From assembly GCF_003605575.1 (NCBI RefSeq), contig NZ_QKNY01000007.1, forward strand, positions 80,637 through 144,636: a DNA stretch of 64,000 bases, in the 5' to 3' direction. How positions within the stretch are numbered: position 1 is the stretch's first letter; each line of letters begins with the position of its first letter. Both the position numbers and the translations under genes were made by a program. The notes under the pieces were generated by a model. The model worked only from the letters and a program-made list of their open reading frames with translations, did no database searches and was not told the DNA's origin. The stretch is from Halonotius aquaticus (GTDB lineage: Archaea; Halobacteriota; Halobacteria; Halobacteriales; Haloferacaceae). Shown here in pieces: positions 2,728-21,954 of the stretch.

Positions 2728-4473
2728 ATGAGCAAACAGGAACCCAAAGCAGAGTCGGGGAAAGACCCTGAGTTGCGGAGCAGCGAAGTCACCGAGGGCG
2801 TCGATCAGGCTCCCTCGCGGGCGATGTTCCGCGCGATGGGATACGACGACGCGGATCTCTCCTCGCCGATGGTCGGCATCGCCAACCCGGCCGCCGACAT
2901 CACGCCCTGTAACGTCCACCTCGATGATGTCGCCGACGCAGCCTACGAGGGTGTCGACGACGGCGACGGCATGCCGATCGAGTTCGGGACGATCACGATC
3001 TCTGATGCCGTCTCGATGGGGACTGAGGGCATGAAGGCCTCGCTCATCTCCCGGGAGATGATCGCCGACAGCGTCGAACTCGTCTCCTTCGGCGAGCGGA
3101 TGGACGGCCTCGTCACCATCGGTGGCTGTGACAAGAACATGCCGGGGATGATGATGGCCTCGATCCGAACCGACCTCCCGAGTGTCTTCCTCTACGGCGG
3201 GTCGATCATGCCCGGCGAGCATGACGGTCGGGAGATTACCATCCAGAACGTCTTCGAGGGCGTCGGCGCGGTTGCCCAAGGCGAGATGGAGGAAGACGAA
3301 CTCGACGAGATGGAACGCCACGCCTGTCCCGGTGCGGGCTCCTGTGGCGGCATGTTCACCGCCAACACGATGGCATCGGTTTCCGAAGCCTTGGGCCTCG
3401 CGCCGCTCGGCTCGGCCGCGGCCCCCGCCGAACACGAGGAACGCTACGAGATCGCCGAACGCGCCGGCGAGATCGCCGTCGACGCCATCGAAAACGACCG
3501 CCGACCCTCCGACATCCTCTCGAAGAAGAGCTTCGAGAACGCCATCGCCCTGCAGGTCGCCACCGGCGGCTCGACGAACGCGGTGCTGCACATCCTGGCG
3601 ATGGCCGCCGAGGCTGGCATCGACCTCGACATCACGGAGTTCGACGAGATCTCCCGGCGCACACCAAAGATCGCCAACCTCCAGCCCGGCGGCGAGCGCG
3701 TCATGAACGATCTCTTCGAGATCGGCGGCGTCCCGGTCGTCCTCCGTCGCCTGCTTGAAGCCGATCTGATCCACGGCGACGCGATGACCGTCACCGGTCG
3801 CACGATCGCCGAGGAACTCGCCCATCTTGAAGAGGAAGGACGAATTCCCGACGACGACGAGATAGAGGCCGACTACCTCTACACCGTCGACGACCCTTAT
3901 CAGGAGGAGGGCGCGATCAAGATCCTGACGGGCAATCTCGCCCCCGACGGCGGCGTCCTCAAGGTGACCGGCGACGACAAGTTCCACCACGAAGGCCCCG
4001 CTCGCGTCTTCGAAAACGAGGAAGACGCGATGGCCTACGTCCAGGAGGGCCACATCGAATCTGGCGACGTGATCGTCATCCGCAACGAGGGGCCGAGCGG
4101 CGGCCCCGGCATGCGGGAGATGCTCGGCGTCACCGCCGCGGTCGTCGGCGCGGGCCACGAGGACGACGTGGCCCTGCTGACCGATGGTCGTTTCTCGGGT
4201 GCGACTCGCGGCCCGATGATCGGCCACGTCGCGCCCGAAGCCGCCGACGGCGGCCCCATCGCGCTGCTCGAAGAGGGTGACACTGTCACCGTCGATATCC
4301 CCGAACGAGAGCTGTCAGTCGACTGCTCTGAGGAGGAACTCGACGCCCGCCGCGAGGCGTGGGAACCACGCGATCCAGCTTACACCAGCGGCGTTCTCGG
4401 CAAGTACGCTCGCGACTTCGGCTCAGCCGCGAAGGGTGCAGTGACGAACCCCGGACTCGTCGACAACGACTGA
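2728..4473 (+). CDS. ilvD: dihydroxy-acid dehydratase
   Basis: 581 residues, full length for IlvD/Edd. It dehydrates 2,3-dihydroxy-isovalerate and its homologue to the 2-keto acids in valine, isoleucine and leucine synthesis. Fe-S ligand cysteines are visible at Cys61 (ADITPCN), Cys134 in the signature CDKNMPG, and Cys206 in [15 protein letters not shown]. The C-terminal half carries the glycine-rich signature region near [10 protein letters not shown] and [13 protein letters not shown]. The protein is cytoplasmic. The gene stands alone with its own promoter and ends in a stem-loop; no ilvBNC genes are in the window. Confidence 0.97.
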
Positions 4474-10387: not shown

Positions 10388-11803
10388 ATGAAAAATGATT
10401 CAACGGAGAACTATTCGAAAATCAGTAGACGGCGGGCTTTGCGGGGGGTCGGGGGTCTTACTGCGCTCGGTGTTACCAGTATTGTGTCCTCCAATACGGC
10501 TGCTGCTGCTGATCCCGGTACCCAACTGTGGTCTTTCGAAACTGAAGGTAGTATTGAATCATCGCCGACGATAGTTGATGGGACTGTCTTTGTTGGGTGC
10601 AATGGGAGTGCGTACCATAGTGAGAGTTCGTTCAAGAGTGGGAGTTTCTACGCGGTGAACGCAGAGACAGGCCAAGAGGAGTGGAGTTTTGAAGCTGGAC
10701 AAGGGTTTGACTCGTCGGCAACGGTAGCCGATGGAAGAGTATTTTTTGGTAGTTTCGACGACAACCTGTATGCCTTAGATACTGAAACTGGCCGAAAAGA
10801 GTGGGTCTTCGATGCTCACGGTATTGGTTCATCCCCCACGGTGTTTGAAGGTACAGTCTTCATTGGGAGTTATAATAATCTGTATGCGGTGGATGCTGAA
10901 ACAGGCGATCAAGAGTGGGTTTTTGAGACCGACATTGCTTCCTCACCTACAGTGAGTAGCGGGACAGTCTTCGTTGGAAGTGGTGATAATAATTTGTATG
11001 CGGTGGATGCTGAAACAGGTGATCAGCAGTGGGTTTTTGAGACCGGTGATAGCGTTTATTCGTCACCCACCGTAGCTAATGGAACCGTCTTTGTCGGGAG
11101 TAGAGATAATAATCTCTACGCCGTCGATACAGAGACAGGCCAAGAGGAGTGGGCTTTCGAGACTGGGGGAGTTGTTGACTGTTCGCCGACCGTATCTGAT
11201 AATGTAGTCTTTTTCGGTAGTGGAGATGAAAGATTCTATGCATTGGATGCGGAGACAGGTCAAGAGGAGTGGGTTTCATATGTCCCATATCCTGTTCGTT
11301 CGTCGCCAACAGTGGCCGATGGGACTCTCTTCATAGCTGCCGACAACGAGCCTAATAGCTTGACACTGGCTGAAACTAGTGATGACGGCATCATAGGCGC
11401 ACTAGATCTCGAGACAGGCGAACCGAAATGGAGTTTGAACATAGGAATTGATTTTTCGTCGCCGACAGTGGCCAACGGGACGCTCTTTATTGGTAGTAGT
11501 AATGATACTGACGGCAATATCGAAGGTGGAAAGCTAGTTGCGGTGGATACGGACGTTACCGGTTCTAGTGATGGGTCTCGTGCGAAGTTAGGAACACTTG
11601 GTCATCACGGTGACCGAAAAAATGCTGGTCAGGCAACAACTACACTCGAAAATTTGGGATTACCTGAAAGTCTTTCCTTATCTGGGGTGCCCACACCTGC
11701 AGTAATCGCAGCCGGAGGTGGAACCATTGGAGTAGGGATATATGCTTACCGCCGCTGGCGTCGATCAGACGATACAGAATCAAACGATACCGAAGAAAAC
11801 TGA
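10388..11803 (+). CDS. Tat-exported PQQ-like beta-propeller surface protein
   Basis: 471 residues. A Tat signal is seen at the N-terminus: twin Arg at 14-16 (SRRRALRG), a hydrophobic stretch, and an Ala-rich cleavage region near 40. Residues about 45-385 are eight or so propeller blades of about 40 residues with the recurring pattern SSPTV-x-GTVFVGS, LYAVDAETG, WxFET. A single C-terminal helix (about 436-455) before RRWRRSDD anchors it in the membrane with the propeller outside. The fold matches PQQ-type or BamB-like propellers, but no enzymatic residues can be assigned. Composition is more AT-rich than the neighbours, suggesting transfer. Confidence 0.85.
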   Translation: MKNDSTENYSKISRRRALRGVGGLTALGVTSIVSSNTAAAADPGTQLWSFETEGSIESSPTIVDGTVFVGCNGSAYHSESSFKSGSFYAVNAETGQEEWSFEAGQGFDSSATVADGRVFFGSFDDNLYALDTETGRKEWVFDAHGIGSSPTVFEGTVFIGSYNNLYAVDAETGDQEWVFETDIASSPTVSSGTVFVGSGDNNLYAVDAETGDQQWVFETGDSVYSSPTVANGTVFVGSRDNNLYAVDTETGQEEWAFETGGVVDCSPTVSDNVVFFGSGDERFYALDAETGQEEWVSYVPYPVRSSPTVADGTLFIAADNEPNSLTLAETSDDGIIGALDLETGEPKWSLNIGIDFSSPTVANGTLFIGSSNDTDGNIEGGKLVAVDTDVTGSSDGSRAKLGTLGHHGDRKNAGQATTTLENLGLPESLSLSGVPTPAVIAAGGGTIGVGIYAYRRWRRSDDTESNDTEEN

Positions 11804-15407: not shown

Positions 15408-15413
15408 TTTATA
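15408..15413 (+). promoter_or_regulatory. TATA box giving RNase J a long leader
   Basis: TTTATA inside CTATTTATATC. Transcription from it would begin near 15437, about 130 bases before the RNase J ATG. That is unusual for a haloarchaeal gene, where most transcripts are leaderless. Confidence 0.45.
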
Positions 15414-15444
15414 TCTCGGGCCCAGCTATTCGGATAACCAACGC

Positions 15445-15553
15445 GCTGTTCCCTGTGCGTCGGTGCGTTCGCTTCGGCTGTCGCTCCCTGCGGTGCGGAC
15501 GGTTCCGCTGGTTTGACACGGCCGGGCGTCGCCCGCGCCACCGGCGGAACAGC
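15445..15553 (+). ncRNA. GC-rich structured 5' leader of the RNase J gene (candidate regulatory RNA)
   Basis: GCTGTTCC (15445-15452) and GGAACAGC (15546-15553) are perfect 8-base complements that would close a 109-nt domain. Inside lie shorter self-complementary GC segments such as GGGCG/CGCCC near 15525-15540. The closing stem ends 17 bases before the ATG. It could be an autoregulatory leader cleaved or bound by RNase J, or a separate small RNA. Evidence is complementarity and promoter position only. Confidence 0.4.
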
Positions 15554-15570
15554 TCTTGTTTGGACTACCT

Positions 15571-16914
15571 ATGGAAATCGAAATTGCAACCGTCGGCGGC
15601 TACGAAGAGGTTGGACGACAGATGACGGCCGTGCGGATGGACGACGAGATCGTCGTCTTCGATATGGGCCTCAACCTCTCGCAGGTACTGATTCACGACA
15701 ACGTCCAGACCGAGACCATGCACAGTCTCGATCTGATCGATATGGGTGCGATCCCCGACGACCGCATCATGAGCGAGCTTGATGGCGAGGTCACGGCCAT
15801 CGTCCCCACCCACGGCCACCTCGACCACATCGGCGCGATCCCGAAGCTCGCCCACCGCTACGACGCGCCGGTCGTCGCCACGCCGTTCACGATCGAACTC
15901 GTTCGCGACCAGATCGCCGACGAGGACAAGTTCGATGTCGACATCGACCTGCAGGTCATGAACGCCGGCGAGCAGATGCGGATCAGCGATCAGGTGCAGA
16001 TGGAGTTTGTCAACGTGACGCACTCCACGATCGACGCCATCAACCCGGTGCTGCACACGCCGGAGGGCGCGATCGTCTACGGGCTGGACAAACGCCTCGA
16101 TCACGACCCCGTCCTCGGCGACCCGATCGATATGAAACGGTTCCGCGAGATCGGCCGCGAGGGCGACGGCGTCCTCTGTTACATCGAGGACTGTACGAAC
16201 GCCAACCAGAAGGGCCGAACCCCCTCGGAGTCGGTCGCCCGCAAAGAGCTCCACGACACAATGTTGAGCCTCGAAGATTACGACGGCGGGATGGTGGCGA
16301 CGACGTTCGCGAGCCACATCGCCCGCGTGTCGAGTCTGCTTGAGTTCGCCGAGGAGATCGGCCGCGAGCCGATTCTACTGGGTCGCTCGATGGAGAAATA
16401 CACCGGTACTGCGACCAATCTCGATGTCGCGCTGCCGGACAACATCGAGATGTATGGCCACCGGCGCGCCATTGACCAGAGCCTCGAACGGATCATGGAG
16501 GACGGCAAGGAAAACTTCCTGCCGATCGTGACGGGCCACCAGGGCGAGCCGCGCGCGCTGCTCACCCGGATGGGCCGCGGCGAGACCAACTACGACTTCG
16601 ACAACGGCGATAAGGTGATCTTCTCGGCCGGCATCATCCCCGAGCCGACCAACGAGGGCAACCGGTATCAGTCCGAACGCCTCCTCAAAATGCAGGGTGC
16701 CCGCATCTACGACGACATCCACGTCTCCGGCCACCTGAGCCAGGAGGGTCACTACCAGATGCTTGAGGCACTTCAGCCCCAGCAGGTCATTCCGGCTCAC
16801 CAGGATCTGAAAGGGCTGTCGGGCTACGTCAACACGGCCAACGCCTTCGGCTACGAGGTCGGCCGCGACCTCCATCTCACCCGGAACGGAAACATCATCC
16901 AGCTGACCGAGTAA
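15571..16914 (+). CDS. rnj: archaeal ribonuclease J
   Basis: 447 residues from the ATG at 15571. The metallo-beta-lactamase motif HGHLDHIGA is at 81-89, the beta-CASP region is in the middle, and the late motifs ([13 protein letters not shown] and VIPAHQ) complete the metal site. It is the 5'-3' exoribonuclease of euryarchaeal mRNA and rRNA turnover, cytoplasmic. Length is right for aRNase J, which lacks the bacterial C-terminal domain. A structured leader precedes it. In many haloarchaea idsA or lipid genes are nearby; here it is alone. Confidence 0.93.
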
Positions 16915-20737: not shown

Positions 20738-21214
20738 ATGCATCCCCCACTCTGTATCGTCGGCCCCAGCGATGCCGGCAAGACCACGCTGCTGGAATCG
20801 CTGGTCGCCGAACTCGCCGACGCCGGCCGGGTCGGAACGATCAAATCCATCCACCACGACATCGAGATCGACACGCCCGGAAAGGACACCCACCGCCACC
20901 GCACCGCCGGGGCCGACACGGTCGTCGGGCTGACGCCGTCGCTGTCGTTCGAGATCACCCCCGGTGGAAAGGACGCCGCCGACAGCGAGGTCGATCTGCT
21001 GGAATCGACAGTCGACGATCTCCGAGCGGCCGGCTACGAGTTCGTTCTCATCGAGGGCTTCCACAGTGCACCCTACCCAAAACTCGTCGTCGGCGACCGC
21101 CCGGTTGCTCCGCCGGTCGTCGCTCGCGGCCCGCCGACGGCCTTCGACGTCGCGGCGCTTGCGACCGCGATGATCGAGGGGACGCTCGTCGACGTCGACG
21201 CCGACTCGGTGTGA
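20738..21214 (+). CDS. mobB: molybdopterin-guanine dinucleotide biosynthesis protein MobB
   Basis: 158 residues. The Walker A loop GPSDAGKTT is at 9-17; later IKSIHHD and the Walker-B-like FVLIEGFHSAPYPKLVV are typical of MobB. The protein binds GTP and assists attachment of GMP to molybdopterin in the cytoplasm. No mobA or moa gene is adjacent. The C-terminus ends with the region VDVDADSV. It is divergent from the large kinase and upstream of the RNase P genes on the same strand. Confidence 0.9.
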   Translation: MHPPLCIVGPSDAGKTTLLESLVAELADAGRVGTIKSIHHDIEIDTPGKDTHRHRTAGADTVVGLTPSLSFEITPGGKDAADSEVDLLESTVDDLRAAGYEFVLIEGFHSAPYPKLVVGDRPVAPPVVARGPPTAFDVAALATAMIEGTLVDVDADSV

Positions 21215-21264
21215 CCGCGGCCCCGACCGGAACGCCCAAACCACCCAGCCGCCAACACGGGCGC

Positions 21265-21954
21265 ATGTACGAGGCGGTCGCGGCCTATCCTGCGGGTGAC
21301 AGCACCGTCAGCCGGCAGGCGCGGACGGCCGCCGACTACGGCTACGACGGCCTTGTCGTCCGCACCCGCGAAGCCGACTTCGATGCCGAGGCGATCAGCG
21401 ACCGCTACGGGATCGAGGTCGTCCGCGGGATCGAGGTCGACGCCGCCGATCCCCAATCCGCGGCGGGGGCGGTCGGCAACTACCGCCCGGAGTGTTCCGT
21501 TCTCCTCGTTCGCGGCGGCACCGACGTGCTCAACAGATACGCTGTCGAAACCGACCGAATCGACGTGTTAACGCGCCCGATGGTTGGTGACGGCGATTTT
21601 AATCATGTGCTCGCTCGCGCCGCGAAGACCCACCGCGTTCACGTGGAGTTCGATTTTGGCCCGGTGCTGCGAGCGAGTGGCGGCCCCCGCGTGCAGGCCC
21701 TCCAGGAGCTCCGGAAGCTTCGTGAACTCGTCGAGCAGTACGACGTACCCTTCGTCGTCAGCGTGACCGCCGACTCCCACCGGCAGCTTCGTGCCCCACG
21801 CGAGCTGCGGGCGGTCGGCGAACAGATCGGGTTTAGTCCCGACCAGCTCACCGCGGGCCTCGACGCGTGGGGTGAGATCGTCGCTCGCAACCGTGAGCGC
21901 GCCGATGAGCGCTTCATCGAACCCGGCGTTCGGCGGGGGCCATATGAGCAATGA
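21265..21954 (+). CDS. rnp3: RNase P protein component 3 (Rpp30)
   Basis: 229 residues from the ATG at 21265; the same frame is open far upstream but that extension is shadow of mobB. The TIM-barrel strands GYDGLVVRTRE, VVRGIEVDA, VLLVRGG and HVEFDFGPVLR are visible, and the end has the PFVVSVTADS strand. It is the Rpp30 homologue that, with Pop5, Rpp21 and Rpp29, supports the RNA subunit in tRNA 5' processing. It overlaps pop5 by 4 bases (ATGA) and both lie just upstream of psmA, the conserved archaeal order. Confidence 0.92.
   Translation: MYEAVAAYPAGDSTVSRQARTAADYGYDGLVVRTREADFDAEAISDRYGIEVVRGIEVDAADPQSAAGAVGNYRPECSVLLVRGGTDVLNRYAVETDRIDVLTRPMVGDGDFNHVLARAAKTHRVHVEFDFGPVLRASGGPRVQALQELRKLRELVEQYDVPFVVSVTADSHRQLRAPRELRAVGEQIGFSPDQLTAGLDAWGEIVARNRERADERFIEPGVRRGPYEQ

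Follow-up and report, generated by a model that had tools for sequence, protein, structure and literature searches.

The window, by which we mean the whole stretch of 64,000 nucleotides analysed here, belongs to a Halonotius genome and carries on its forward strand a gene for RNase J whose product of 447 amino acids is 97% and 98% identical to the enzymes of H. pteroides and H. roseus, respectively. The protein passes the cut-off of the RNase J profile TIGR00649 (412.3 bits against 400), and no second RNase J copy was found in the 2.47-Mb assembly (98% complete). Just 5' of the promoter, between positions 10388 and 15060, lie genes which read as PQQ-type beta-propeller repeat proteins together with a repetitive secreted protein, and the segment from 20738 to 21954 holds, after a histidine-kinase-like gene, two frames which we take to be a MobB-like protein and a protein resembling the Rpp30 subunit of RNase P. 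The space in front of the RNase J gene is occupied by a predicted structured leader, whose parts are given below together with the gene (all coordinates refer to the window; H-type leaders are defined in the following paragraph).

15408 to 15413, forward strand: TTTATA, the TATA-like box of the promoter of the RNase J gene, assigned from the sequence, its first T lying 30 nt before the first paired C
15436 to 15570, forward strand: predicted 5' leader of about 135 nt, delimited by the TATA spacing and the conserved leader edge and ending at the base before the ATG
15438 to 15443, forward strand: 5' strand of the putative outer helix P0, CCAACG, paired in 9 of 9 H-type leaders
15445 to 15452, forward strand: 5' strand of the inner stem P1, GCTGTTCC, a covarying helix with pair probability 0.92
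15453 to 15545, forward strand: leader interior, weakly conserved outside the closest species, with further helices predicted for each single sequence
15546 to 15553, forward strand: 3' strand of P1, GGAACAGC, a covarying helix with pair probability 0.92
15557 to 15563, forward strand: 3' strand of the putative P0, TGTTTGG, with a bulged T at 15561, 7 nt before the ATG
15571 to 16914, forward strand: RNase J gene (447 amino acids, TIGR00649)

For the comparison, 241 stretches upstream of RNase J genes were collected (152 plus 89 more), 203 of which are distinct. They were sorted into leader types by simple word patterns, which left 25 of the 203 unlabelled, many of them A-like by eye, and placed at least two loci (L009 and L049) under type C although they resemble type A. 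Leaders of the window's kind number 88, consisting of 9 of H-type from Halonotius, Halohasta and nearby metagenome assemblies, and 79 of B-type from other genera; no leader was obtained from L113, a gene fragment, or from L202, in which the start pattern was not found. Their anchors were found by short motifs, with a single candidate in 79 of the 88 cases, while for the other 9, with at least two candidates each, the one with a TATA-like box was preferred (that of L182 was set by eye). The B/H label follows the protein clade, as only 4 changes of label are needed on a tree of 133 proteins (those of the 203 loci with a frame of at least 430 amino acids), against 41 when the labels are shuffled. 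Of 392 genomes of the order, 70 contain the B-type pattern before the start codon in combination with an RNase J start, whereas its reversed control appears in none of the rows listed.

The TTTATA box which the sequence-only reading had placed about 160 bases upstream of the start codon is present, 163 bases before the ATG at 15571, and its position appears to be fixed among related genes. A TATA-like word stands 29 to 32 nt 5' of the first paired C of the leader in 80 of the 88 leaders, at exactly 30 nt in 56 of these 80, compared with a frequency of 0.18% at random interior positions; the remaining 8 lack the listed TATA words but, on inspection by eye, have an AT-rich word in the corresponding position. 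As judged from this spacing and the conserved leader edge, transcription would start at 15436 or 15437. The median leader length is 154.5 nt (n = 88), and a Shine-Dalgarno-like word occurs within the final 20 nt of just 2 of the 88. A leaderless start at the ATG, which the sequence-only reading had named as the outcome that would speak against a leader, was rejected, since a TATA-like box is suitably placed for it in only 1 of the 88. Two other ways in which a leader may act were likewise set aside: a conserved leader peptide is unlikely in the H-type, as the frames differ outside the three closest species (an ATG is present within 54 of the 88 leaders and 2 of the 9 H-type leaders), and attenuation by a terminator was rejected in view of the occurrence of five-T runs in just 2 of the 88 leaders.

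The inner stem P1 corresponds to the perfect 8-bp stem of the sequence-only reading, which had its arms 109 nt apart; the stem itself stands, the 109 nt being its outer span, with 93 nt between the arms. When the 164 bases from 15408 to 15571 are shuffled with their dinucleotide content preserved, 46 of 300 shuffles also contain a perfect stem of at least 8 bp, and the fold energy of 15434 to 15600 is ordinary (z = -0.53, with 57 of 200 shuffles folding as well). Folding of the single sequence was rejected as proof, because it leaves the leader indistinguishable from shuffles, and since stem and fold energy alone are unconvincing, a comparative test was needed. Within the predicted leader, P1 is the dominant pairing, at 0.92 per pair as compared with 0.02 for a competing 11-nt repeat.

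The comparison was made on alignment A1, which holds 86 of the 88 B/H leaders (L213 and L214, with leaders of 235 nt, were omitted). In these, 97.9% of the P1 cells are paired against 93.9 ± 0.4% in shuffled alignments (0 of 500), and 24 cells have changed on both sides against 3.6 ± 1.8 (0 of 500), although these cells count sequences rather than events and 8 of the 24 are H rows which may represent one event. Both-side changes are spread over 5 of the 6 pairs (2.6 ± 1.0 when shuffled, 8 of 500), and sliding the partner strand by 1 to 3 columns leaves at most 60.3% of the cells paired. The compensatory changes which had been proposed as a check on the stem are thus present. A test along the protein tree with 42 of the 77 type-B rows of A1 leads in the same direction, the P1 pair being kept on 29 of the 31 branches with a change (94%), while 200 permutations keep it at a mean of 75% and a maximum of 88%; this support consists mostly of one-sided G-U steps, and a simultaneous double change is found on 1 branch, which does not exceed the permutations (mean 0.66). 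G-U pairs as read on the sense strand are common, as expected of RNA. In type B, P1 reads GC-Y-GUCC / GGAC-Y-GC with a retained mismatch of two pyrimidines, and at this mismatch (columns 17 and 187 of A1) T or C stands on both sides in at least 67 of the 77 B rows. The mismatch represents a possible recognition or cleavage point.

Outside P1, a further helix, P0, was first suggested by folding the nine H-type leaders, and is a possible element which the sequence-only reading had missed while seeing the inner stem. P0 would join the bases at the predicted 5' end to those 8 to 14 nt upstream of the start codon. In the H-type, 5 of its 6 pairs are invariant and the sixth varies on one side; the pair probabilities in the window range from 0.26 to 0.84. 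P0 and P1 taken together are paired in 96.8% of the cells of the nine H-type leaders against 92.6 ± 1.4% when shuffled (5 of 500), with 4 cells changed on both sides against 1.4 ± 0.9 (5 of 500), but in this alignment the counts of pairs that changed on both sides (151 of 500) and of pair types (146 of 500) stay within the range of the shuffles. Over the B/H leaders of A1 the corresponding values are 97.6% against 94.3 ± 0.2%, and 33 both-side cells against 4.7 ± 1.9, with 17 of the 33 in H rows. When the ends of leaders are exchanged, own 5' and 3' ends pair at -20.94 kcal/mol and exchanged ones at -18.36 ± 0.28 kcal/mol (0 of 10,000 permutations), the own 3' end having a median rank of 25 of 88.

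How these values are to be read depends on the selection of the rows. In the H rows only the 5' strand of P0 had been used as a motif for selection, the 3' strand being unconstrained, whereas in the B rows both strands entered the selection, through the anchor CCGAA or a similar one and the label ATCGG before the ATG; moreover, 57 of the 79 B rows came from pattern-search loci, most of them by a pattern containing ATCGG. Because the selection of B rows used P0 motifs, the invariance of P0 in type B says little. Of the 203 stretches, 77 contain both the 3' word and a stricter 5' motif, 3 contain the word without the motif, none contains the motif without the word, and 123 lack both, a co-occurrence which shared descent could also produce. 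By eye, P0-like matches may be found in the other types as well (CCGAG/CUCGG in C, AGC-GAAA/UUUC-GCU in A). A helix common to all leader types is nevertheless not supported by the end-exchange test, as exchanged ends pair at least as well as own ones in type A (z = +0.5) and better in type C (z = +2.2), where P0 barely varies and the test has low power. P0 is therefore considered likely for leaders of the window's kind alone.

In the genomes searched, covariance models built from the leaders of the window's kind give strong matches at no gene other than RNase J. In the genome of the window, the B/H model gives the leader an E value of 4.3e-14 with the next match at 1.18, and the H model 2.1e-33 with the next at 2.02; model R2, which was built from nine leaders including that of the window, matches positions 15435 to 15585 with 5.4e-35. 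Among 60 related genomes, 35 contain a B/H-model match at E ≤ 0.05. All 14 matches below 1e-5 are located at RNase J starts, most of these strong matches being model-building sequences with three independent ones (in genomes G029, G191 and G021), and of the 27 weaker matches 22 are at RNase J and 5 elsewhere (the best at 0.002). Many of the R3 matches are likewise model-building sequences of R3 itself. Models R1 and R3 also extend into the gene by 15 and 9 bases, respectively, and are thereby biased towards RNase J sites. Searches of Rfam returned only a tRNA elsewhere in the window and, for the 18 RNase J loci searched out of 110, again just a tRNA; at a permissive threshold the leader gave one match of 16 bits against a cut-off of 59, hence below the gathering cut-off. 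The analysis thus provides covariance models for an RNA that Rfam 15 does not match.

The sequence-only reading had treated the leader as a case of one gene, which is too narrow, since leaders of similar length with a distal promoter precede many haloarchaeal RNase J genes, in many cases with a different sequence. Type A (67 labelled) contains a strongly covarying hairpin, in which 26 of 60 sequences have changed on both sides at one pair; the alignment A3 used for this holds 60 of the 67, three having been omitted for want of an anchor and four because of long inserts. A TATA-like word lies 20 to 38 nt before the type-A leader in 53 of 64 cases, and 24 to 38 nt before the ATG in 0 of 64. The type-A model has matches in 27 of 40 genomes, and 28 of its 29 matches are at RNase J, training sequences included. 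The type also shows a near-invariant core, CCGACG.GCTG.AAGACGCCGGGG (A3 columns 154 to 183; for example in L068 and L057), which could be a protein or ligand site. At one locus (L026, positions 2840 to 3320, minus strand) a type-A leader is split by about 200 nt of AT-rich, partly repetitive DNA, and both halves match the model. Type C is found in Haloarcula, Halosimplex and their relatives. In Halohasta and some Halonotius, additional or divergent copies of RNase J are preceded by A-like leaders (L147 to L151, L111 and L112), Halohasta having both H-type and A-like copies, while only the H-type was found in the genome of the window. In 20 genomes outside or at the edge of the haloarchaea, the distance from the end of a same-strand open frame of at least 100 codons to the RNase J start is at most 26 nt in 13, and at most 122 nt in all 20; the distances within the haloarchaea were set aside on account of spurious long frames in GC-rich DNA. 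Since RNase J has the appearance of a downstream gene outside the haloarchaea, the leaders look like a haloarchaeal gain.

As judged from a promoter at fixed TATA spacing 5' of the structured stretch and on the strand of the gene, from the structure of P1 being retained through compensatory change, and from the consistent link to one gene, the presence of a conserved cis-regulatory leader on RNase J is well supported, and it is by comparison that the leader is raised above chance. Leaders tied to the gene of a single RNA-acting protein are a usual mark of self-control. Because the RNA is linked to one gene and the enzyme encoded there acts on RNA, RNase J itself would be the likeliest reader, and we assign a probability of roughly 0.5 to the reading, drawn as in the sequence-only reading by analogy with RNase E, that the folded leader of about 135 nt serves RNase J in controlling its own message. 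The mRNA would start at about 15436 with its 5' bases held in P0 and the covarying P1 inside, so that the fold, which would leave about two bases unpaired before P0, may make the 5' end inaccessible to 5'-to-3' decay. P0 would also bring the 5' end near the start codon, and the ribosome may load close to the 5' end. Whenever RNase J is plentiful, it would bind or cut its own leader and the message would be lost, whereas the message would survive when the enzyme is scarce. The amount of an enzyme which is both essential and dangerous would thereby stay at a fixed level, comparable to the control of RNase E through the rne leader in E. coli. The weaker case for P0 in type B leaves the odds of this reading unchanged, because it rests on P1, the promoter and the association with a single gene. 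The interior of the leader is poorly conserved, and consequently no protein-binding motif can be named for the window's type.

Among the alternatives, the leader may be a constant element for stability or translation, in which a paired 5' end protects the message against 5'-to-3' decay, with RNase J itself as the degrading enzyme, and sets translation without any feedback on the enzyme level. Structure alone would suffice for this, the predicted start leaves about two bases before P0, and the Sulfolobus ortholog of RNase J degrades RNA from 5' ends according to the available text of PMC10663502; however, a plain clamp should be present on many stable messages, and strong matches were found only at RNase J in the genomes searched, which makes this explanation rather unlikely. 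Riboswitches and leaders that bind proteins are frequent among long conserved leaders, and the RNA might also tune the translation of RNase J in response to temperature, salt, an ion, a metabolite or a different protein (a RecJ partner, for example). The near-invariant core of type A could be the corresponding binding site, but the interior of the window's type is devoid of a highly conserved ligand-like core and no Rfam match was obtained at the permissive threshold, and we regard such a sensor as improbable. The stretch may also be taken as the gene of a separate small RNA, given its single well-placed promoter and the more than 60% of Haloferax start sites that belong to likely non-coding transcripts, as given in the accessible part of PMC4983044. 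This is very improbable, as the 3' strands of P1 and P0 lie 8 to 25 nt before the ATG, so that the folded RNA would end at the gene, and five-T runs are as scarce as mentioned above, the strong matches being confined to RNase J. That the stem arose by chance in a GC-rich spacer, for which the shuffles with an equally long stem and the ordinary fold energy might be quoted, is hardly credible, as this is contradicted by the covariation, the fixed promoter spacing and the single-gene association.

If self-control by RNase J is retained as the preferred reading, a wider proposal can be put forward, which is clearly more tentative than the reading for the window and on balance improbable: haloarchaeal RNase J genes, in contrast to the operon-like copies in other archaea, would have gained their own promoters and structured leaders of at least three types unrelated in sequence, all serving as sensors of RNase J and representing the first self-controlling RNase messages known in archaea, with the 5' end of the window's type folded near the start codon and readable almost like that of a leaderless message. 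No report of an RNase J leader appeared among the literature matches listed (supplements and some subscription papers fell outside their scope), and the available portions of PMC10927574, PMC7237163, PMC8303175 and PMC6490895 contain no mention of one.

The known systems closest to the RNase J leader each share a part of its features. In the rne 5' UTR, the stem-loop hp2 serves as the sensor. The rne leader of RNase E in E. coli and its relatives is likewise a long structured cis leader on the gene of a major RNase and provides feedback via decay of the message, as described in the available text of PMC10989929, whereas the enzyme and the domain of life are different here, the window's leader has about 135 nt compared with 361 in rne, and feedback is proposed by analogy. 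A structured S15 leader has been proposed in Halobacteria (PMC7247131, available part) and resembles the present case in that it covaries and belongs, again in haloarchaea, to the gene of a protein which binds RNA; archaeal ribosomal-protein leaders are thought to bind the ribosomal protein by imitating rRNA, while the RNase J leader precedes the gene of a nuclease. With the leadered messages of Haloferax volcanii it has the 5' leader in common. The premise of the sequence-only reading that most haloarchaeal mRNAs are leaderless agrees with the value of 72% for protein-coding messages in Haloferax, where only 97 leaders are longer than 150 nt and regulation through structured leaders was considered atypical of haloarchaea, in so far as the text of that study is available (Babski 2016, PMC4983044). 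The leader described here, which is widespread, covaries and precedes the gene of an essential RNase, clearly departs from this leaderless habit. It also suggests a control circuit in a tractable archaeon, as RNase J of H. volcanii is essential, acts as an endonuclease in its homodimeric form and has been placed in a conditional, tryptophan-controlled rnj strain, according to the accessible part of PMC10470531. If RNase J indeed reads the leader, self-control of RNases through message leaders would exist in both prokaryotic domains and with unrelated enzymes.
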